The notes below the pieces were generated by a model. The model saw nothing but the letters and a program-made list of their open reading frames with translations, made no database searches and was not told the origin of the DNA. Of a stretch of DNA of 64,000 nt, positions 4,145 to 26,780 are shown one piece after another. Positions within the stretch are counted from its first letter, which is position 1. Every line of letters begins with the position of its first letter. The stretch is from Gammaproteobacteria bacterium (lineage in GTDB: Bacteria > Pseudomonadota > Gammaproteobacteria > Enterobacterales > Neiellaceae). Position numbers and translations under genes: made by a program. The stretch is taken from positions 1 through 64,000 of the forward strand of contig JAFOOX010000036.1 in assembly GCA_017425245.1 (NCBI GenBank), read 5' to 3'.

Positions 4145-4284
4145 GTCACCCCTCTAAAGAGACAGACGCTCTGAGCCGCGTCCTTGGCGTTATTGGTCTG
4201 CCACCCGCAGACTAGCCTTGGGTGAATCTTGCTTCCATTCTCCCCAACTGAATCCGAGGCCCCGCTCGAAACGCAGCTAGGCGA

Positions 4285-4655
4285 GCCTACCTTATAAGCT
4301 GCGCAGTAAATGTGAACGCGTGTCAAATCAGTGCTGCGGCTCGCGCTCCCACCCCGTTTGAGCAGTGGCGGAACCACATCGCAGCCAAACACGGCATTGG
4401 GGCTGGTGGTGGGTCGAGGGGACAGGAAGTCACCGAGAGCGAGCCCGGCACAGGGATGTGCCGTCGAGCGGCCCACCGGCAGCACCGGAACAGGCCACTA
4501 GCATCAATAGCGCTGCTCTACCGGGCCGCCGGTGGGTGCAGGGAGGCCGTGCGGAAACGGCCTTCCTGCTCGTCGTGGAGGGGGCGAAACCCCTCCATCC
4601 GCTGCCACGCAGTGGCAAATCTGCTGCGGCGCATCAGCCAACGCAGCGAGCCTCA
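4285..4655 (+). repeat. Structured modular repeat, copy 2
   Basis: The left end is CCTACCTTATAAG at 4286, shared with copies 5 and 7. A module with GTTTGAGCAGTGGCGG follows. The gamma-type core has GGGGAC-AGGAA-GTCACC (one mismatch in the stem) and a CGGCACA-GGGA-TGTGCCG hairpin. P4 near 4535-4565 has a GCAGGGAGGCCGT stem. P5 is GGAGGGG-GCGA-AACCCCTCC, with a GNRA-type loop. It occupies the space between the ATPase and the lipoprotein gene. Confidence 0.85.
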
Positions 4656-4661
4656 GCTCAA

Positions 4662-4994
4662 CTATTCCCGACTGCACGTCATCTGTTGGTTCGCAAAATA
4701 GATGCAGTCGCCATCCCAGCCCGTTACATCACCCAAAGGCTGACGCAAGGCTGCTTCGCTATACAGCCGGCCGCTGAACAAGGGCTGACCATCGTGCTCG
4801 GCATATATCCCCGCTTCAATCTCGCGCTCAGCAACACTAAGCAACTGGATATAGACCCCGCCATCAGCACCGCCAACCCAAGCAGCCTCAACAGGCACGG
4901 ACGATGGCCGCGCACCGCTTGGCCCGGCCTGCTCAGCCTGCAAGCAGCCGATCAGCATCAACGACAAGGCCAGCGCTACAGAACGTGTCAACAT
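4662..4994 (-). CDS. Small predicted lipoprotein, function unknown
   Basis: The 110-residue product starts MLTRSVALALSLMLIGC, a lipoprotein signal peptide whose lipobox (LIGC) puts the lipidated Cys near residue 17. The mature part is short, acidic and has two further cysteines (DGDCIYF and QMTCSRE) that could form a disulphide. It matches no family I recognise. ATG 4994 is preferred because GGAGG lies seven bases upstream; ATG 4997 directly before it is the alternative. The gene sits alone between repeat copies 2 and 3, so it may be accessory. The lipoprotein call is secure; the function is not known. Confidence 0.65.
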   Translation of the reverse strand: MLTRSVALALSLMLIGCLQAEQAGPSGARPSSVPVEAAWVGGADGGVYIQLLSVAEREIEAGIYAEHDGQPLFSGRLYSEAALRQPLGDVTGWDGDCIYFANQQMTCSRE

Positions 4995-5095
4995 CATGCC
5001 GCCTCCAGCGTCAGTAACCGCTTGGTGGGTTCAAAATTAATGTCCGGGTATTGTGACCGCCAGATCTGACGACATCCACCCCAGCGCCAGCACGG

Positions 5096-5790
5096 TCCCC
5101 CACCCCGTTTGAGCAGCGCCAAGATCACGCAGCAGCCAAACACAGCATCGGGGCTGGTGGTGGGTCGACGCCGAGGACATCCATTCGGAGAACAGCGGCA
5201 GCGCAGTCTTCCGATCACCTCGAGCACCACCCGCACGGCGCTAAGCCTACGCACTGCCAGTCGGCCGTAGGGGTTGAGGCAACAGGACGTTGCCGAAAGC
5301 CACTATGGGCCAGGGACGGCACATTGTGGCGACCCCCTAGGCCGGCAGGACTACAGCCATACATTAATGGTGGTGATCGCGGGGGCCGGCTGGAGGGGTC
5401 GACGCCGAGGACATCCATTCGGAGAACAGCGGCAGCGCAGTCTTCCGATCCCCTCGATCACCACCCGCACGGCGGTAAGCCAACGCTCAACCAGACGGCC
5501 GTAGGGGTTGAGGCAACAGGACGTTGCCGAAAGCCACTATGGGCCAGGGACGGCACATTGTGGCGACCCCGTAGGCCGGCAGGACTACAGCCATACATTA
5601 ATGGTGGTGATCGCGGGGGCCGGCTGGAGGTGCAGGAGGAGGGTCCGGCTACCCTCCTCCTGCCCGTCGCGCGGGGGCGGCACCCCGCATCCGGGCGGCG
5701 CAGCCGCAATCTAGCACCACGCAGTGGCATCCGCGCAGCCCAGCCGCCCCCCAATCTGGCGCAGCTGCACCAGCAACAGGCGCGCTAGAG
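5096..5790 (+). repeat. Structured modular repeat, copy 3, with a 234-bp internal tandem duplication
   Basis: A 234-bp unit (5164-5397) is repeated nearly identically at 5398-5631. Each unit holds a GTCGACGCCGAGGACATCC module, the alpha core P1 (GGCAAC-AGGAC-GTTGCC, first at 5278-5294, second at 5512-5528) and the GCCAC/GTGGC stem. Only the second unit is followed by P4 (GCAGGAGGAGGGT stem, about 5632-5663) and the tail hairpins. The insides differ by only a few bases, so the duplication is recent. Short open frames through it follow the repeat and are not genes. Confidence 0.9.
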
Positions 5791-19169: not shown

Positions 19170-19517
19170 GAACAAGATCCGCCGCTGCGCGGCGGCAGAT
19201 GCCAACTGCGTTGGCGATGCGGGAATGCGGCTGCGCCGCACGGCGTTAAGACAAATCGCTGTGGCGATTTGGGTAAGAGCGCCGACTGGCCGGCGCTGGC
19301 CAGGTAAGGGCCGGACCCGCCCGGCCCTTACCAATCCCGGCGGCCCCCAAGCCCACCACCATCCAGATCTGGCTGATGTTCTGCCGGCCTACGGGGTCGC
19401 CACAATGTGCCCTCCATGGCCCATAGTGGCTCTCGGCAACGTCCTGTTGCCTCGCCCCCTACGCCCGACTGGCCGTGGGTTGACTGGCGTGGGTGCGGGT
19501 GGTGGGCAAGGGGGGAG
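19170..19517 (-). repeat. Structured modular repeat, copy 4
   Basis: On the minus strand it begins near 19517 with CCCCTTGCCCACCACCCGC, as copy 1 does. The alpha core has GGCAAC-AGGAC-GTTGCC, then GCCAC/GTGGC enclosing a GGCCATGGA loop. P4 is the GGTAAGGGCCGG-GCGGGT type. The tail holds an AAATCGC-CACA-GCGATTT hairpin and GCGGC hairpins. It fills the gap between the urea operon and the integron cassettes; the attC at 19566 lies 50 bp beyond its 5' end. Confidence 0.88.
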
Positions 19518-19565
19518 AATGCGGCGCCGACTCAGGTCGTCAGGTCAGCTTCCCTGATCTCGGCG

Positions 19566-19643
19566 GCCTAACGCCCGGCTCTCGCGCCGGTTTGGAGCCG
19601 CGAAGCGGCGGAAAATCGGTCGCTGTGCAGCCGATTGTTAGAA
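19566..19643 (-). other. Integron attC site of the ATPase cassette
   Basis: On the minus strand the site runs TCTAACAAT-CGGCT ... AGCCG-GGCGTTAGGC. It has imperfect inverted R boxes (CTAAC/GTTAG), paired L boxes (CGGCT/AGCCG) with the unpaired AAT versus GGC spacers typical of attC, and a central hairpin region. The 3' box GTTAGGC matches the consensus GTTRRRY. It starts 6 bp after the stop of the gene at 19650-21092 and is oriented with it. Confidence 0.85.
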
Positions 19644-19649
19644 GTAACC

Positions 19650-21092
19650 TCAACTGGTGCTTAATTCCAGCTCGTTGAATATTTGCATTGGATCTTCGGG
19701 TTGCAACGCCCAGCGATAAGCAGGGTGAACCTCCCAGTCATAGCCGAATTCGGTAAACTTATTTGATAAGTACCGATTCTCCTCGAAATATTTTCGATCA
19801 ATGCCTGCGGGAGTTTGTTTGCGGGCGGTAATAAAATTAATTTTATAAAGAAATGCAGCCAGCTCTTTAGTTTCAACTTGATTTCCATTAGCCCAACGAA
19901 ACTTTCCTTGCTCCTCAATCATCTTAAGCTTTCTCAGAAGTTGATCTGTGCTGTATACATAACCCTGAGATGCTTTTCTTTGTATTTTTGAAGGGCGCAT
20001 ACCAAGTATCAGTTTTTCTACACCAGGCAGTTCCGAACGATATTCATTAATGGTATCTTGAAGCCGTCCCTGCGAATACTCTTCAAAAATCGACTCCAAG
20101 TTGTCAGTGGATATTTTATCTGAATCGTTAGAATGCGCTTTTCTTCCTGCCAAAGTTAGAAGTTTAACCAAATCTCGCGGCCGCTTTCTAATTAGTGACA
20201 TTAGAACCCTATACATAGGCGCATTACTCCAATGCCCTTTTCCAGTGAATCTTTCCTCAATCACGGGAGTTAGATATTTCATCAACTCGGATTGATGCTT
20301 CTTTAGAAGCTCACCCTCATCAATCAGTCTTCCAAAATAACTCTCTACTCTTTTAACAAGAAGAACCAATATTTCATGGTTAGTCCATGAATACCAGATT
20401 ACCGAACTTTCTGTTTTGTCAGTCGATTCATCAGAAGTCCGAGCCAAATAATAAACATCTGATCGCAAACTAATTCTAAAAAATATCCCTCTATTTTCGG
20501 TAGAAATATCCCGTACGGCGTTAAGGAGTGCTGATATTCTCAGAATGTCGTGCTTTCTCCCTTGCCACCCTCGGTCCAAATCATCTATGTACACTGAAAT
20601 ATTTTTGCTCTTGAGAAAGTCCCTCAGCACAGCTTCTTTAGATGCAGTTAGGCTAAGCTTATCGTCAAGCTTTAATGTTGAAGCAAGAAAATCTAAGGCA
20701 GCACCACCGTATTGGTTCAATTTACCTCGCCAGCCATCAAATAACATGCCGAATGAAGTCAACGCTTTTTTTGCGATAATTTCGTTAATGCCTGTCTTCC
20801 AGTCCCTGATAAGCCTTAGAAAATCATCCGTTTCTTCGCCAATGCCAATAATGTCATCAGGCTTAATCAAAAGCGTGAGCCTATTGTTTTCTGCCTCCTC
20901 ATCAATTGCGACCTGAAAAAGAGCTGACTTCCCAATCCCCTTGTGTCCCACGAGTATTCGTAATGGCAGATCATTTACAACCTGCTTATAGGCCTTACTC
21001 TTAAAGTAATACTCTTTAAGCCTTGTGGGATCTTCATCTTCAGCAGCCTCATGGCCAAATAGTTTTTGCAGTTCGTATTCACTAAAATCCAT
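19650..21092 (-). CDS. P-loop ATPase, Sll1717-like, in an integron cassette
   Basis: This 480-residue protein has Walker A GHKGIGKS (49-56) and Walker B SVYIDDLDR (166-174). It is followed by a STAND/KAP-like helical region with charged motifs such as IRKRPRDLVKLL. Its N-terminus (FSEYELQKLFGHEAAEDEDP) fits the Sll1717-type P-loop ATPases often found in defence islands. The actual function is unknown. The gene is strikingly AT-rich beside its GC-rich neighbours and uses A/T-ending codons, a sign of transfer. It is bounded by attC sites at 19566 and 21128, so it is a gene cassette, not part of the urea region. No promoter was found within the cassette. Confidence 0.82.
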   Translation of the reverse strand: MDFSEYELQKLFGHEAAEDEDPTRLKEYYFKSKAYKQVVNDLPLRILVGHKGIGKSALFQVAIDEEAENNRLTLLIKPDDIIGIGEETDDFLRLIRDWKTGINEIIAKKALTSFGMLFDGWRGKLNQYGGAALDFLASTLKLDDKLSLTASKEAVLRDFLKSKNISVYIDDLDRGWQGRKHDILRISALLNAVRDISTENRGIFFRISLRSDVYYLARTSDESTDKTESSVIWYSWTNHEILVLLVKRVESYFGRLIDEGELLKKHQSELMKYLTPVIEERFTGKGHWSNAPMYRVLMSLIRKRPRDLVKLLTLAGRKAHSNDSDKISTDNLESIFEEYSQGRLQDTINEYRSELPGVEKLILGMRPSKIQRKASQGYVYSTDQLLRKLKMIEEQGKFRWANGNQVETKELAAFLYKINFITARKQTPAGIDRKYFEENRYLSNKFTEFGYDWEVHPAYRWALQPEDPMQIFNELELSTS

Positions 21093-21127
21093 ATCTCATA
21101 CTCTTCAAAGGTACTGAGTTCAAAGGC

Positions 21128-21188
21128 TTCTAACGCCCGCGTCATAAGCGCGAGATTACGAGCGTCCTAATTGACGCGATTGTTAGCA
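21128..21188 (-). other. Integron attC site of the KAP NTPase cassette
   Basis: On the minus strand it reads GCTAACAAT-CGCGTCA ... TGACGCG-GGCGTTAGAAGC. The CTAAC/GTTAG boxes are inverted and the CGCGTCA/TGACGCG arms pair perfectly over seven bases. The AAT/GGC asymmetry equals that of the site at 19566. Only 2-3 bp separate it from the stop of the NTPase gene at 21191, the usual compact cassette arrangement. Confidence 0.87.
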
Positions 21189-21190
21189 GT

Positions 21191-22591
21191 TCACGCCTCA
21201 AATCTAGAAGCGATTTCAATTTTCTTTAGTAAGTAACCCAAAGAACCAATGCCGCCGTTCCAGTCAAAATCATTGATAATTTCCAATATTCTTTGAGCTC
21301 GTTGTTTTTCTTCTTTGCTTGAGGAATCGGAACCTATTACTTCTTGATATTTATTCGATATTTCATCGTAACTATGGCTGTGTGATTTGCAAGTAACGAT
21401 ATATGCCTCTAGCGCTGTGCCATAATTAGTCAAAAGCAAATCTGTGGCGCCAGGTTGTGTCATAAACCTTTCCAGCAGTTCAAATACATTGATCTCATCA
21501 GAAATCAATTCCTTGTACAAGTCTGGCAATTTGACTTTCAATACAATGAGGAAGCAAAGAAAAAGGGGGAACAGCTTATAGTTTTCAGGTGTTGTTCTGA
21601 TGGAAAGACTAAGAAGTGAACAGCAGTGCTCTTGCTCACGTAGCGTTAAGCTATACAGCTCAAAAAGCTCCGAGAACATCTTTAAAGACTGCTCGCCTTC
21701 GTACTGAACTCCTCCTGCATTCTTCTTTGAAAAATACTCATTAAACGAATATTTCTTGAACAAGGCTTTTACAAAAACCCCTTTGTCCGGAGGAGGGAGA
21801 ATATAATCAAAGTCCATAAATCTTCGCAAGTAGCCGTTTACATTCAGCCCTTCACCATAAATTGCTCTGATAGATGAGCCCAGTTGCTTTTTGTCCGCAC
21901 CAAGAACAAAGACAATGTTGTCTACGTTAAAGAAGTGTTTTGCTTTTTCCAGAATCTCAATTGCAAAGTTTGGCCTGCAGCGATCAAGTTCATCGATAAT
22001 AAAAACCAGTGGTTTAGGGTTGTCTGGGTCGGTTGTACTACTTGCTAGCTGGGATATGGCCTTCCGAAATGACTTTATAGACTTCTTGGAGTTTTCGTAC
22101 CTCTCTATCTGTTCTTTTGCTATCGACTCGGCGAGCCCTGCAAGAGCCTGTTCAGTAACCTTATCGAGATCCAGTGCGCCAGCCGTTGCAATCTTTGCAG
22201 CAACGGGAACTGAGCGTTTTAAAAGTGCAATACCGATATCTTTAGTTTTACCAAGGTATTCTCTAGCTTTCGACTCATCACCGGTTTTTGATAGTTCAGT
22301 TATCGATGCACTTATCTCCCCGATAAGGCATACAAGAGCATCATCAGAAAAATCACTTTCCCAAGCATTGAAGTAGATCGTTGGTACATCGTTATTCTTC
22401 AAATGCTGTTCCCACATCCTAAGGAAAGTGGTTTTTCCTTGTCCCCAAGGAGCATCAATGCAAACAACTACCGAGTCATTTGCAGACAAGACGAACGCTG
22501 TTAAGGCCTCTCCAGTCTCCTTGCGACTCAATGCGTCATTTTTATATGGGTCGTCTTTATTAATTTCAATTTCACGACTTTTTAGTATCAC
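21191..22591 (-). CDS. KAP-family P-loop NTPase in an integron cassette
   Basis: This 466-residue KAP NTPase has Walker A APWGQGKTTF (47-56), Walker B PLVFIIDELDRCRP (194-207), and the family's helical insert between them, including hydrophobic VPVAAKIATAGAL (128-140). KAP proteins are often membrane-linked and occur in antiphage systems, which fits a cassette origin, but this one's function is unknown. GTG 22591 is chosen because GGGAAGAG lies just upstream and the frame beyond it runs through integron-site sequence. AT-rich composition sets it apart from its surroundings. It precedes the second NTPase cassette in the same orientation, so one upstream promoter could serve both. Confidence 0.85.
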   Translation of the reverse strand: MILKSREIEINKDDPYKNDALSRKETGEALTAFVLSANDSVVVCIDAPWGQGKTTFLRMWEQHLKNNDVPTIYFNAWESDFSDDALVCLIGEISASITELSKTGDESKAREYLGKTKDIGIALLKRSVPVAAKIATAGALDLDKVTEQALAGLAESIAKEQIERYENSKKSIKSFRKAISQLASSTTDPDNPKPLVFIIDELDRCRPNFAIEILEKAKHFFNVDNIVFVLGADKKQLGSSIRAIYGEGLNVNGYLRRFMDFDYILPPPDKGVFVKALFKKYSFNEYFSKKNAGGVQYEGEQSLKMFSELFELYSLTLREQEHCCSLLSLSIRTTPENYKLFPLFLCFLIVLKVKLPDLYKELISDEINVFELLERFMTQPGATDLLLTNYGTALEAYIVTCKSHSHSYDEISNKYQEVIGSDSSSKEEKQRAQRILEIINDFDWNGGIGSLGYLLKKIEIASRFEA

Positions 22592-22751
22592 TCGGCTCTT
22601 CCCTTTTACTGCTAACGTTGCCGCCAGCGGCCCGATTGAGTGAAGCCTTTTGGGGTAAAGTGCGAAGCCCCCCAAAAGGCGGAACGAGTGAAGGTCCAGC
22701 GCATGAGCGAAGCAATGCCTAGGACACGCACTCGATACCACGAAAATCAAG

Positions 22752-23115
22752 CCTACCTTATAAGTTTTTCAACAAAATGTGAACACGAGCCAAATCCGGG
22801 CGGCTACTCAATCTGCCACCCCGATTGAGCAGCGGCGAAACCACACCGCAGCAGGCCACGGCATCGGGGCTGGTGGTGGGTCGAGGTGACAGGAAGTCAC
22901 CGAGAGCGAGCCCGGCACAGGGAAGTGCCGTCGAGCGGCACGCCAGCAGCACCGGAACAGGCCATAGGTATCAATAACGCTGCTCTACCGGGCCGGCTGG
23001 TGGTGCAGGAGGAGGGTCCGGCTACCCTCCTCCTGCTCGTCGCGCGGGCGCGAAAGCCCGCATCCGGGCGGCGCAGCCGCAATCTGCCGCGCCGCAGGCG
23101 CATGTCGCCAGTCCT
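22752..23115 (+). repeat. Structured modular repeat, copy 5
   Basis: The left end is CCTACCTTATAAG. The gamma core pairs perfectly (GGTGAC-AGGAA-GTCACC) and continues into CGGCAC-AGGGAA-GTGCCG. P4 is the GCAGGAGGAGGGT type near 23003-23035, as in copy 3. P5 is GCGGGC-GCGAAA-GCCCGC. No gene is visible from the KAP start to 23893. Confidence 0.87.
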
Positions 23116-23184
23116 TACCCGGCCAGCGCCGGCCGGTCGGCGCTCTTATCAATTCGCCACGCGATTTGTCTTAGCTGCGGCGCA

Positions 23185-23515
23185 GCCGCAATCCCCCTAC
23201 CCGTTTGAGCAGCGGCGAAACCACACCACAGCAGGCCACGGCATCGGGGCTGGTGGTGGGTCGAGGGGACAGGAGGTCACCGAGAGCGAGCCCGGCACAT
23301 GGATGTGCCGTCGAGCGGCCCAGCAGCAGCACCGGAACAGGCCACAAATCTGGATAGCGCTGCTCTACCGGGCCGCCGGGATTGGTAAGGGCCGGGCGGG
23401 TCCGGCCCTTGCCCGGCCTGCGCCGGCCGGTCGGCGCTCTTATCAAATCGCCAAGCGATTTGTCTTAGCTGCGGCGCAGCCGCAATCTGCCGCCACGCAG
23501 TGGCATCCGGCGGCG
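23185..23515 (+). repeat. Structured modular repeat, copy 6
   Basis: It lacks the CCTACCTTATAAG end and starts with the CCGTTTGAGCAGCGGCG module. The gamma core has one stem mismatch (GGGGAC-AGGAG-GTCACC) and a CACATGGATGTG hairpin. P4 is the GGTAAGGGCCGG-GCGGGT type and the tail has AAATCGC-CAA-GCGATTT. It follows copy 5 in the same direction after a 70-bp linker. Confidence 0.85.
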
Positions 23516-23524
23516 CAGCCGCAA

Positions 23525-23630
23525 TCCCCAACCCATTTGAGCAGCGGCGAAACCACACCGCAGCGGGCCACGGCATCGGGGCTGGCCGTGGGTTGGCTAG
23601 CGTGAGTGCGGGTGGTGAGCAAGCGGTGGG
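23525..23630. repeat. Chimeric repeat fragment (6b)
   Basis: The first half (23525-23585) is the plus-oriented GTTTGAGCAGCGGCG module. At 23586 it switches to CCGTGGGTTGGC and the rest of the inner end of a minus-oriented copy, like 1465-1505 and 19473-19512. The core and P4 are missing. It looks like a recombination junction between two copies. From about 23631 to 23893 I see only unassigned sequence with no convincing gene. Confidence 0.75.
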
Positions 23631-23893
23631 GAATCTATGCAACCTTGCAGGACCTAATCAGTTGCTTGGTGTCAGCTGATGCCTGCACGCCAACGAGCAT
23701 TCCCCGGTCCTGAAACTGCTGCAACCCAACGACTGAATCAGCGAAGACCAGCCTCCGTTCCGATGGATCTTGAAGACTACTCGCATTCTTAAGCGGCCAA
23801 CGCGGGGTAGACTGCACCCGTGGTCTTGGGATGGCTGTTCTTGGAAGGTGGATCGCGCTAAGGTTGAACTGATGACGTCCGGAGGAAAAGCTA

Positions 23894-24106
23894 ATGTCGG
23901 CTAAGGGAATTCGCCCCATCGTCAGCGAGTACCACCTGTTGTGGGAAGCGCTTAAATATTATGAGGAGCGGCTAGAAAAGCTCTCCGCCATGGAAACGGA
24001 TGAAGACCGGCAACTTACCTATGACGAGAAGCTGCAAGATCTTGAAGGAATGCTCAAGGCACTAAAGATTGCAGCCCAAGAAGATTACCAGCTCGATTTG
24101 AGCTGA
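23894..24106 (+). CDS. Small hypothetical protein, helical and acidic
   Basis: The 70-residue product begins MSAKGIRPIVSEYHLLWEAL and is almost entirely charged amphipathic helix, with heptad-like leucines in ALKYYEERLEKL. It has a strong ribosome-binding site (GGAGGAAAAG) and is followed 28 bp later by a Rho-independent terminator, so a real transcription unit is likely. I do not recognise a family. It could be a small antitoxin- or adaptor-like protein, but nothing beyond size and helicity supports that. Confidence 0.6.
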   Translation: MSAKGIRPIVSEYHLLWEALKYYEERLEKLSAMETDEDRQLTYDEKLQDLEGMLKALKIAAQEDYQLDLS

Positions 24107-24133
24107 GACCGGCCTCGTCAGTGCTCACGCTAC

Positions 24134-24155
24134 AAGCCCACGAATGTGGGCTTTT
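24134..24155 (+). terminator. Rho-independent terminator
   Basis: AGCCCAC-GAAT-GTGGGCT is a perfect 7-bp stem followed by TTTTC. It lies 28 bp after the stop of the 70-residue gene. Confidence 0.85.
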
Positions 24156-24243
24156 CACTCGATGATTTGGTAATAGGCATGATGTCGCGCTATATGTTTG
24201 CTGGTGAAGCAACGCCTTGATATCTTGGCAAGCTGGAGATTTT

Positions 24244-24465
24244 ATGAGAACCATTGACATTGAAGATGCAGGAGCAGTATTAAAGGAAATGCTGGTAAAC
24301 CCTGATCCTGTTGATGAGGATATTGTCATCAACGCCGGCAACGGAAAGGTTCTTGGTATCATTATTTCCGAGCAGGCCTATGCATTCTTTCTAAAAAAGG
24401 TAGAAAGCGAAGAGGACCGCAGTGATGCGGCCACCATCGAAGAATTTCACCGAACCAAGGTTTGA
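24244..24465 (+). CDS. Phd/YefM-like antitoxin-type small protein, no toxin partner seen
   Basis: The 73-residue product is MRTIDIEDAGAVLKEMLVNP followed by a strand segment. VINAGNGKVLGIIISEQAYA resembles the strand-helix that Phd/YefM antitoxins use to dimerise (the 'g-vvavlis-eay' pattern). Family members repress their own operon and neutralise a downstream toxin, but no toxin follows here; the next gene is on the other strand. GGAG at 24234 supports ATG 24244 over the in-frame ATG 24217. It may be an orphan antitoxin. The assignment rests on a weak motif. Confidence 0.5.
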   Translation: MRTIDIEDAGAVLKEMLVNPDPVDEDIVINAGNGKVLGIIISEQAYAFFLKKVESEEDRSDAATIEEFHRTKV

Positions 24466-24504
24466 ACGCAGACCACACAGCTAACTAAGCACCGCCTGGA
24501 CCCG

Positions 24505-24849
24505 CTAGCCCTGTTGACCAAGGGCCGGGAATGCGGATTGGATGTAGTAGTAGGTCTTTTCATAAATGCCGAGCATGACATCGTCATAGGCATGTTCATG
24601 GGCAGGATCGTAGTTGTCGTCGCTGTCATCAATGAAGGGGTAGCGCAGTTCTGCTCGCTGCATCTCGATGTCAGCGAGCACCAGGAGATTGCGGGCATCC
24701 TGTTCAGTGAGAAGCAGGTATTCGTTGGAGCCGGGCTGATGATCGGAGAACAATGGTTGTAGCGCGACATAGCCCTCGCTGCGCACCACCTCACTCAACA
24801 TGTCGATCAATTCGGCCGGCAGCAATACCTGCTTCTTTTTCATACTCAT
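24505..24849 (-). CDS. Hypothetical protein, third gene of the DUF2778 operon
   Basis: This 114-residue acidic cytoplasmic protein begins MSMKKKQVLLPAELIDMLSE and has no signal peptide or membrane segment. An aromatic stretch, YEKTYYYIQSAF, lies near the end. It starts 14 bp after the stop of the membrane-protein gene and is transcribed with it and the transpeptidase-like gene. I do not recognise a family. Co-transcription with a candidate effector-immunity pair makes a second immunity or regulatory role conceivable, but this is only positional inference. Confidence 0.6.
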   Translation of the reverse strand: MSMKKKQVLLPAELIDMLSEVVRSEGYVALQPLFSDHQPGSNEYLLLTEQDARNLLVLADIEMQRAELRYPFIDDSDDNYDPAHEHAYDDVMLGIYEKTYYYIQSAFPALGQQG

Positions 24850-24863
24850 GCTACCCCATTCTC

Positions 24864-25211
24864 TTACATCTTGTTGTGCCGCCGTCTGATCATCGCAACC
24901 AACAGCGGCACAAGAGTCACCGCACCGGCAGCGCTGAAGCCACTGAACAGATAGCCCATGCCTAGCTCAGCAATCACGGCCGAGCGCATCGCAGGGTCGA
25001 GCACTATGTCCAGCATCCCCCATCCAAGTACGACCGTTACCAGCAGGCCAACCACCCATAAAGCGGGGCGCCACCAGGTCAACGCTGAGCACACTGCAAT
25101 GGCGACAATGGCAACCAACCATTGATCGCCGTAACCGGGTAGCTTGTCCGCTACTTCGGCCATCACCGGCAACGACGCTCCAGCCAGCATCAACAGCAAT
25201 AAGAATCTCAT
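24864..25211 (-). CDS. Small membrane protein, candidate immunity partner of the DUF2778 protein
   Basis: The 115-residue product has a signal peptide (MRFLLLLMLAGASLPVMAEV, cleaved near Ala18) and then three hydrophobic segments (about 30-45, 48-66 and 85-108), ending in a basic RRRHNKM tail. The start codon directly follows the stop of the transpeptidase-like gene with no gap, implying coupled synthesis. Peptidoglycan-targeting effectors of this kind are usually paired with an envelope-located immunity protein, and location and linkage fit. No sequence similarity to a known immunity protein is claimed. Confidence 0.6.
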   Translation of the reverse strand: MRFLLLLMLAGASLPVMAEVADKLPGYGDQWLVAIVAIAVCSALTWWRPALWVVGLLVTVVLGWGMLDIVLDPAMRSAVIAELGMGYLFSGFSAAGAVTLVPLLVAMIRRRHNKM

Positions 25212-25649
25212 TTAACCGGTAACCTCGACGGCAATAGTTATAGGGCTGCCCTTGATTGCAGCAAGCAATTTATCAGTCTGCCTGTTGCCCAACACGCCGC
25301 CACCAATATCAATACAACCTGCGGAGCCATCCATCCCGCCACCATGGATAAAAAAGCCGTCTCTGCCAAAGGTGTTAGTGCCTGCCGCTGGGTGCAGCCT
25401 AATTCGCCAATCGCCCCAATCACCTTGTGCGCGTCTGATCACATCACCGGCAAGAATAGGGTCACTTAGTTCTTTAGGATCGATGTAATAGAATCCCACC
25501 GGAATTGGCCCCTGATTAGCGGTGACCATACATGAAACCGATGGATTATTCATGCAGCCATCACGACCGCTGGTCGCTCGCATAGACACAGAATAAGCCG
25601 GGGTCGCAAACGACAGCACCTTCCGACTAATGCTGAATGCAATCCTCAT
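25212..25649 (-). CDS. DUF2778 / Tlde1-like L,D-transpeptidase-fold protein, putative effector
   Basis: This 145-residue protein has the DUF2778 pattern. NQGPIPVGFYYIDP precedes the catalytic segment FFIHGGGMDGSAGCIDIGG, with His and Cys arranged as H-x(7)-S-x-G-C in L,D-transpeptidase-like enzymes. Known members (Tlde1) are type VI secretion effectors that cut or exchange peptidoglycan stem peptides in rival cells. There is no obvious Sec signal. GGAGGTGAT six bases before ATG 25649 is a strong ribosome-binding site. No secretion genes are in the window, so delivery is unknown. It heads a three-gene operon with a candidate immunity gene. A housekeeping role is less likely, given the family and setting. 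Confidence 0.78.
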   Translation of the reverse strand: MRIAFSISRKVLSFATPAYSVSMRATSGRDGCMNNPSVSCMVTANQGPIPVGFYYIDPKELSDPILAGDVIRRAQGDWGDWRIRLHPAAGTNTFGRDGFFIHGGGMDGSAGCIDIGGGVLGNRQTDKLLAAIKGSPITIAVEVTG

Positions 25650-26033: not shown

Positions 26034-26109
26034 ATTCGCGTCCCTTCTAAAGTCTAACCAGACTTATACAAATCCATGTGCGCCCACCGTGGATGGACGC
26101 TAACAGAGC

Positions 26110-26780
26110 TTACCTTACAAGCCGCACAACAAAATGTGAACACGCGCCAAATCCGAGCTGCGGCGCAGTCTCCCACCCCGTTTGAGCAGCGGCGAAACCA
26201 CACCGCAGCAGGCCACGGCTTTCCAAGGACAGCCCCCCCAAAGCCACGGCCGCAGTCTAACCCACCCAGCGACTCAAGAATGCAGCAGCCTTTCACATTC
26301 CCCAAATCGGACATAGCACGAACGCGGTTGTCCACTTTACAACCAGCGGCAGTGCCGTCTTCCCACACCCGTTTGAGCGCCAGCGCAATCACCTAGCCGC
26401 AAGCACTGCCTGCGCGCGGGGTTGCGGGCGAGGCAACAGGACGTTGCCGAGAGCCACTAAGGCACAGGGAAGTGACTTTGTGGCGACCGCAAACCAGTGC
26501 GGAGTAACCAACAACGCCAAACGCTGGCGCTCTACCGGACCGCCGGGATTGGTAAGGGCCGGGCGGGTCCGGCCCTTACCCGGCCTGCGCCGGCCGGTCG
26601 GCGCTCTCACCAAATCGCTTCGCGATTTGTCTTAATGCTCATTCACCGTGAAACGGAGGTTAAGGCCTGCCCGTCGTGGAGGGGGCGGAACCCCTCCATC
26701 TGCTACCACGCAGTGGCATCTGCTGCAGCTACGCACCAGAGTGGCCGTCGCCAAGTCCCTGATCGGCCAGTCGATGAAAT
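26110..26780 (+). repeat. Structured modular repeat, copy 7
   Basis: The left end CTTACCTTACAAG resembles copies 2 and 5. It is longer because a 130-bp unrelated stretch (about 26220-26345) separates the GTTTGAGCAGCGG module from a second GTTTGAGCGCCAG module and the alpha core (GGCAAC-AGGAC-GTTGCC at 26432-26448). P3 is CAC-AGGGA-AGTG. P4 is the GGTAAGGGCCGG-GCGGGT type. The tail has AAATCGC-TTC-GCGATTT and a GGAGGGG-GCGG-AACCCCTCC hairpin. Confidence 0.85.

Follow-up and report, generated by a model that had tools for sequence, protein, structure and literature searches.

The window (the whole 64-kb stretch of DNA that was analyzed) contains a genuine two-cassette integron array, which lies inside an 82.5-kb contig and extends along the minus strand, beginning at 22616 and ending at 19568. 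A KAP NTPase cassette comes first and is followed by an Sll1717-type ATPase cassette. The first cassette (21134..22615, 1482 bp from crossover to crossover) carries the minus-strand gene of a KAP-family P-loop NTPase of 466 aa with a GTG start (21191..22591, assigned by Pfam and PADLOC) and its attC site (21130..21186). The second cassette (19572..21133, 1562 bp from crossover to crossover) carries the gene of an Sll1717-family P-loop ATPase of 480 aa (19650..21092, assigned by NCBIfam NF047389) and the last attC site of the array (19568..19641), all on the same strand. Each gene stops 4-9 nt ahead of its attC site and has the same orientation, and the GC content of the cassettes is 41.6%, compared with 61.9% for the window. 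A first-pass annotation of this DNA, made from the sequence, had described two attC sites directly after the genes they serve and AT-rich cassettes of about 1.4-1.6 kb that encode these two protein families, and all of these points were confirmed. Upstream of the first cassette lies a leader (22617..22750, minus strand) that resembles neither attI nor attC, and downstream of the last one lies a conserved 3' junction, which includes the start of a GC-rich element (19456..19572, minus strand). GC-rich palindromic repeat elements bracket the array on its 3' side (19181..19520) and on its 5' side (22750..23640).

Since a simple motif scan for attC sites with loose rules matched shuffled sequence as often as the real one, it was replaced by a covariance model. 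The model was built from 18 attC sites, all outside the window, taken from the integron on contig C1 of the same genome and from integrons of relatives; RNAalifold recovered the R''-R' and L''-L' helices, with compensatory changes in 13 of the 17 pairs. In the whole 64-kb window, the model matched exactly the two places reported in the first-pass annotation, namely the attC of the Sll1717 cassette (32.8 bits, E 1.4e-5, over the full model) and that of the KAP cassette (32.2 bits, E 2e-5), with no other match up to E 10. The sites passed the attC-model check that the first-pass annotation had named as a possible refutation. The window has two copies of the end motif CTAACAA...GGGCGTTAG, and not one of 100 Markov-shuffled windows has any. 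A scan of the window with Rfam gave nothing over the gathering thresholds. Thus, the locus has two attC sites that show R''-R' and L''-L' pairing and have the same orientation as the genes, and no intI gene is nearby. This is the form of a CALIN, as had been proposed. With neither intI nor attI at this place, it is not a complete integron.

The ends of the first cassette were determined by DNA comparison with the corresponding locus of Pseudidiomarina indica (L077), to which it is 89.4% identical over 1488 bp. The homology extends from the base before GTTAGC at 22616 to the GTTAG of the attC site at 21134-21130, and both limits are G^TTAG crossovers. By this sequence comparison, the KAP cassette is proven, its homology ending at both crossovers as cassette exchange would leave behind: it is bounded by G^TTAG and has the same ends in different contexts. 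In P. indica another attC site precedes the KAP gene, and in the window this upstream site is absent. No second copy of the Sll1717 cassette was found to confirm its ends, and the second cassette is therefore delimited by the two flanking attC sites. No empty site was found either; the urtD loci of relatives from other genera have no synteny to the right of urtE, and there was no match to urtD in a genome of the same genus (60% complete), hence no empty site there.

The KAP gene scored 126.8 bits with Pfam KAP_NTPase (PF07693; gathering threshold 20). Like members of the PADLOC defence-candidate class PDC-S20, it matched that model over the full length (557.3 bits), and it differs from what the class describes in recurring as an integron cassette. 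It is not QatA, as judged by 79.7 bits against an NCBIfam equivalog cut-off of 600. The protein is 92% identical to that of P. indica, 91% identical (in a partial record) to that of Denitrificimonas caeni, and 57-79% identical to those of seven records from several groups. The first-pass annotation had regarded the occurrence of the same genes without attC in close relatives as evidence against cassettes. This was found in part: four of the nine close KAP relatives have no recognisable attC, and the covariance model detected attC at the gene in the other five, which belong to five other lineages. The site lies directly 3' of the gene in P. indica, a Marinobacter, an Oceanospirillaceae MAG, and D. 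caeni, whereas in a Thiomicrorhabdus MAG attC sites lie directly 5' of the gene and about 210 nt 3' of it. The attC sites after the KAP genes of P. indica and D. caeni are nearly identical to that of the window cassette. In Marinobacter sp. DY40_1A1 (L080), the KAP cassette is included in an array with more than a dozen attC matches. Both genes of the array are uncommon. Among 369 genomes of the class, KAP relatives with E < 1e-40 were found in three other genomes, and none were found in viral contigs. The predicted structure (pLDDT 73) had as its best solved match, a weak one, RdrA of the defence system RADAR, with E of approximately 1e-3 and low TM-scores; this model-based match indicates an AAA-type ATPase and little more. 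A sequence comparison of the KAP protein with solved chains gave no match.

The Sll1717-family gene scored 218.2 bits with NF047389 (cut-off 75). It is not the antiphage protein DS41_1, since that model gave 31.5 bits against an equivalog cut-off of 370, and for the N-terminal part only. Its nearest relatives (84% and 80% identity) adjoin phage amidase, portal, and terminase genes; these two close relatives are in phage-like contigs without attC. In the viral contig L091, the relative is beside phage lysis genes, and a gene next to it belongs to a phage family of unknown function; in the viral contig L092, the relative is beside portal and terminase genes. A distant relative was found in a Pf-type phage of Pseudomonas aeruginosa. 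Phage and prophage loci are a setting in which defence genes are often carried. Except for the source genome itself, no Sll1717 relative was found among 99 relatives, and none with E < 1e-30 among 369 genomes of the class. The predicted structure of this protein was discarded (pLDDT 39).

From their families and contexts, both genes are likely to have an antiphage function, and the suggestion in the first-pass annotation that both protein types have an antiphage flavour agrees with the PDC-S20 match of the KAP gene and with the phage genes beside the Sll1717 relatives. Most probably, each gene would act as an independent single-gene antiphage NTPase, a sensor or switch ATPase that takes part in the antiphage response by sensing or by executing it. 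A combination of the two as a two-gene system was rejected, as Sll1717 is absent from the locus of every KAP relative. The alternative that both are ordinary accessory NTPases with no part in phage defence appears unlikely to us. We found experimental proof for neither family, PDC-S20 is a candidate class, and the Sll1717 gene is far under the DS41_1 model, all of which would fit that alternative; against it are the strength of the PDC-S20 match, the prophage-like loci and the Pf-type phage in which Sll1717 relatives occur, and the defence-candidate and toxin genes in other arrays of the same genome.

The absence of an integrase, noted in the first-pass annotation, holds for the window but not for the genome. 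A full-length IntI is encoded on contig C1, where it is the only match in the genome over the cut-off of an IntI model (TIGR02249, 381.7 bits; cut-off 265), and thus an integrase that might act in trans exists. It shares 57% identity with IntI2 and with integron integrases of Shewanella. A LexA-type box, CTGTATGGGCATACAG, lies beside intI in the promoter region (L012:1619). The C1 locus also has its own attI and an array, in which the covariance model recognised five attC sites, one of them weakly; four of these five were in the training set of the model. The C1 integron (L012:623-5300) has a five- or six-cassette array and is itself bordered by the GC-rich elements. The attC model also matched contigs C2, C33, C35, and C70, which were outside the training set. 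Several arrays stop at contig ends. Because the assembly is a draft of 3.45 Mb in 74 contigs (89% complete), a second intI could be missing from it.

A sequence of about 127 bp is common to the attI of the C1 integron and to arrays without intI. We found 11 further copies of this attI, on contigs C33, C57, C58, C35, C73, C70, C67 (two copies), C41, C68, and C50 (orphan attI loci L104, L106, and L122 to L129), and intI was absent from all 11 of these loci. Degenerate copies are present on C74 and C7. The genome of the same genus has two copies (L130 and L131), and the 127-bp sequence was found in none of five genomes from other genera of the family, near none of the integrons of other genomes, and in no plasmid searched. 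Most copies begin at an inverted-repeat arm (the arms of the unit are CGCTCGCTTTTCACGCA ... TGCGTGAAAGCGAGCG) and end at CTGTTA, where the cargo begins. The copies have a conserved block GGACTTC...GGTATAAAAAT, and most contain the conserved block GCTGGACTTC...GATACGGTATAAAAATCAGCCACATGGAACC. The C1 attI showed no consensus sigma-70 promoter, so that a promoter-like role of a block in attI is a guess. In 7 of the 11 orphan loci, attI begins 15-30 nt past the end of a GC-rich element, and at several loci attC sites follow the cargo. The cargo has a GC content of 37-58% (62% for the window) and includes matches to the defence-candidate models PDC-S15, S31, and S60, a NucC-like nuclease domain, and RlaP; in the same-genus genome, it includes a BrnT toxin.

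It could be argued that a MITE-like repeat with a promoter is all that the 127-bp sequence represents, and that its place before intI and cargo is no sign of attI function. The start of the unit at an inverted-repeat arm in nearly all copies would be expected of such a repeat. However, the homology runs approximately 20 nt past the second arm to the GTTA crossover, at which the cargo starts in nearly all copies, one of the copies takes the attI position next to intI, and attC sites follow the cargo at several loci. We consider a mere repeat highly improbable.

Another explanation is that a complete integron at the window locus lost intI and attI by deletion, and that the other attI copies are relics of duplicated integrons, with no service in trans. 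In fact, the C73 locus (L124) and locus L130 of the same-genus genome retain the region upstream of intI beside attI, with no intI, and the LexA-type box is kept in C73; these two loci are relics of former integrons. The degenerate copies on C74 and C7, as well as the decayed appearance of several terminal attC sites, could be understood in the same way. However, most orphan copies start at the inverted-repeat arm without the intI upstream sequence, the crossover GTTA or GTTAG is kept in 10 of the 11, and a full-length IntI persists in the genome. Furthermore, with 89% DNA identity to a cassette in another genus, the KAP cassette does not look like an old relic. Thus, deletion as the origin of the window array and of the orphan copies in general seems rather improbable.

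The first-pass annotation had also placed the array inside a pair of structured elements. Elements are indeed present on both sides, but the arrangement is not unique: GC-rich palindromic elements occur in the window at 4284-5730, 19181-19520, 22750-23640, and 26107-26634, and at dozens of other loci in the genome. Many of them are at contig ends. The AT-rich cargo that they border has integron parts at some loci and none at others, and the many cargo loci so bordered include most of the 11 orphan attI copies. The element before attI has the sequence GGTGATCGAGGGG or variants of it, and at many loci an inverted element, ACCCCTTGATCAC, follows the cargo. Between two groups of these elements, the window has small open reading frames at 23895-25649, possibly another bracketed cargo island, of which the one at 24217-24465 appeared antitoxin-like by eye.

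Starting at the crossover base, the 3' junction of the window array shares 84% identity over 58 nt with the junction of C67a, an attI-led array on C67, and 75% over 72 nt with that of C2, and it is followed by the same GC-rich element as in other arrays. Thus, the 3' side of the window array is of the common type. The elements, and part of this junction, are also found beside cargo that has no integron part, so that the bracket by itself proves nothing about an integron origin; for the same reason, an interpretation of the conserved junction as the right half of attI was abandoned. The 5' side is different. The attI model gave no match in the window up to E 10, so that the 3' junction and the brackets are all that ties the array to the dispersed set. 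The leader at 22617-22750 is hairpin-rich, matched only itself in BLAST searches of its own and related genomes, and was rejected as an attI or attC site after no match was obtained with either model or with BLAST. No consensus promoter was found in it.

These features bear on the possibility that the window array is an off-target CALIN, that is, that IntI inserted both cassettes at a non-attI (attG-type) site. The brackets would then be incidental, because such repeats fill the variable intergenic regions of the genome. The absence of attI from the locus and the unique leader are what this possibility predicts, insertion by an integrase encoded elsewhere is an accepted origin of CALINs (PMC8618304), and the elements border non-integron cargo too. 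However, a random site would not give a junction 84% identical to that of an attI-led array from the crossover base onward, unless the elements themselves are the target. We regard off-target insertion as possible and somewhat doubtful.

Taken together, the window array is probably one of many dispersed integrase-less arrays that depend in trans on the single IntI of C1. IntI, probably induced by DNA damage through the LexA-type box, would recombine attC hairpins and dock cassettes at the dispersed attI copies, and the store of cassettes would thereby be divided among many small loci. The docking unit may have been copied around the genome with the help of the GC-rich elements that bracket it. 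The window locus would have kept the common 3' junction and the brackets, with its attI lost, replaced, or never present. More tentatively, and with slightly less than even confidence, we propose that the genome has a distributed integron, in which about a dozen orphan attI sites, copied around the chromosome as units between GC-rich palindromic repeats, are served by a single SOS-controlled IntI; several cassettes would be in first position at once, defence cargo would be kept in many small loci and not in one array, and the window array would be one such locus, changed on its 5' side.

Normally, a single attI is present per integron, and as a result only the first few cassettes are well expressed. 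If the proposal of many orphan attI sites served by one integrase is true, this limit would be lifted. It would also provide a route by which integrase-less arrays arise and stay active, whereas CALINs are usually read as products of decay or off-target insertion. The KAP NTPase, found again on cassettes in five or more other lineages, joins the candidates for cassette-borne phage defence. Outside class 1, attI sites are poorly described and are not detected by IntegronFinder (PMC9024848), and genomes of this kind would thus be missed. In a limited search of the open-access literature, no account of a single genome with many orphan attI copies was found.

CALINs are already known, as are cassettes that carry defence genes, and the scattered attI layout is what looks new, the window array being an ordinary member with an odd 5' end. 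As in the phage-defence integron libraries of the Vibrio parahaemolyticus study and of Kieffer et al. 2025, both cited in PMC12444791, the cassettes carry candidate defence genes; here, the genes are a KAP PDC-S20 gene and an Sll1717-type ATPase gene, the layout is dispersed, and the function is predicted. As in the attG insertion of Loot et al. 2024, also cited in PMC12444791, the window cassettes are at a place without attI and IntI is elsewhere, but their 3' junction is common to attI-led arrays of the same genome. According to the definition of IntegronFinder, a CALIN is a cluster of attC sites lacking an integron integrase (PMC9024848); off-target insertion, loss of intI, and rearrangement have been put forward as origins of such clusters (PMC8618304). 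The two tandem attC sites of the window, with co-oriented genes and no intI nearby, resemble a CALIN. Unlike a typical one, the array has in its genome a full-length IntI and at least 11 orphan copies of the attI of that integrase, and it is bracketed by dispersed GC-rich elements with a 3' junction common to attI-led arrays. One IntI with at least 11 copies of its docking site, most of them with cargo, is an unusual integron layout. The C1 locus, with its full-length intI, LexA-type box, attI, and cassette array, is like a sedentary chromosomal integron with an SOS-controlled IntI; unlike such an integron with its one long array, this genome has its cassettes spread over many small loci, most of which have a copy of attI and no intI.
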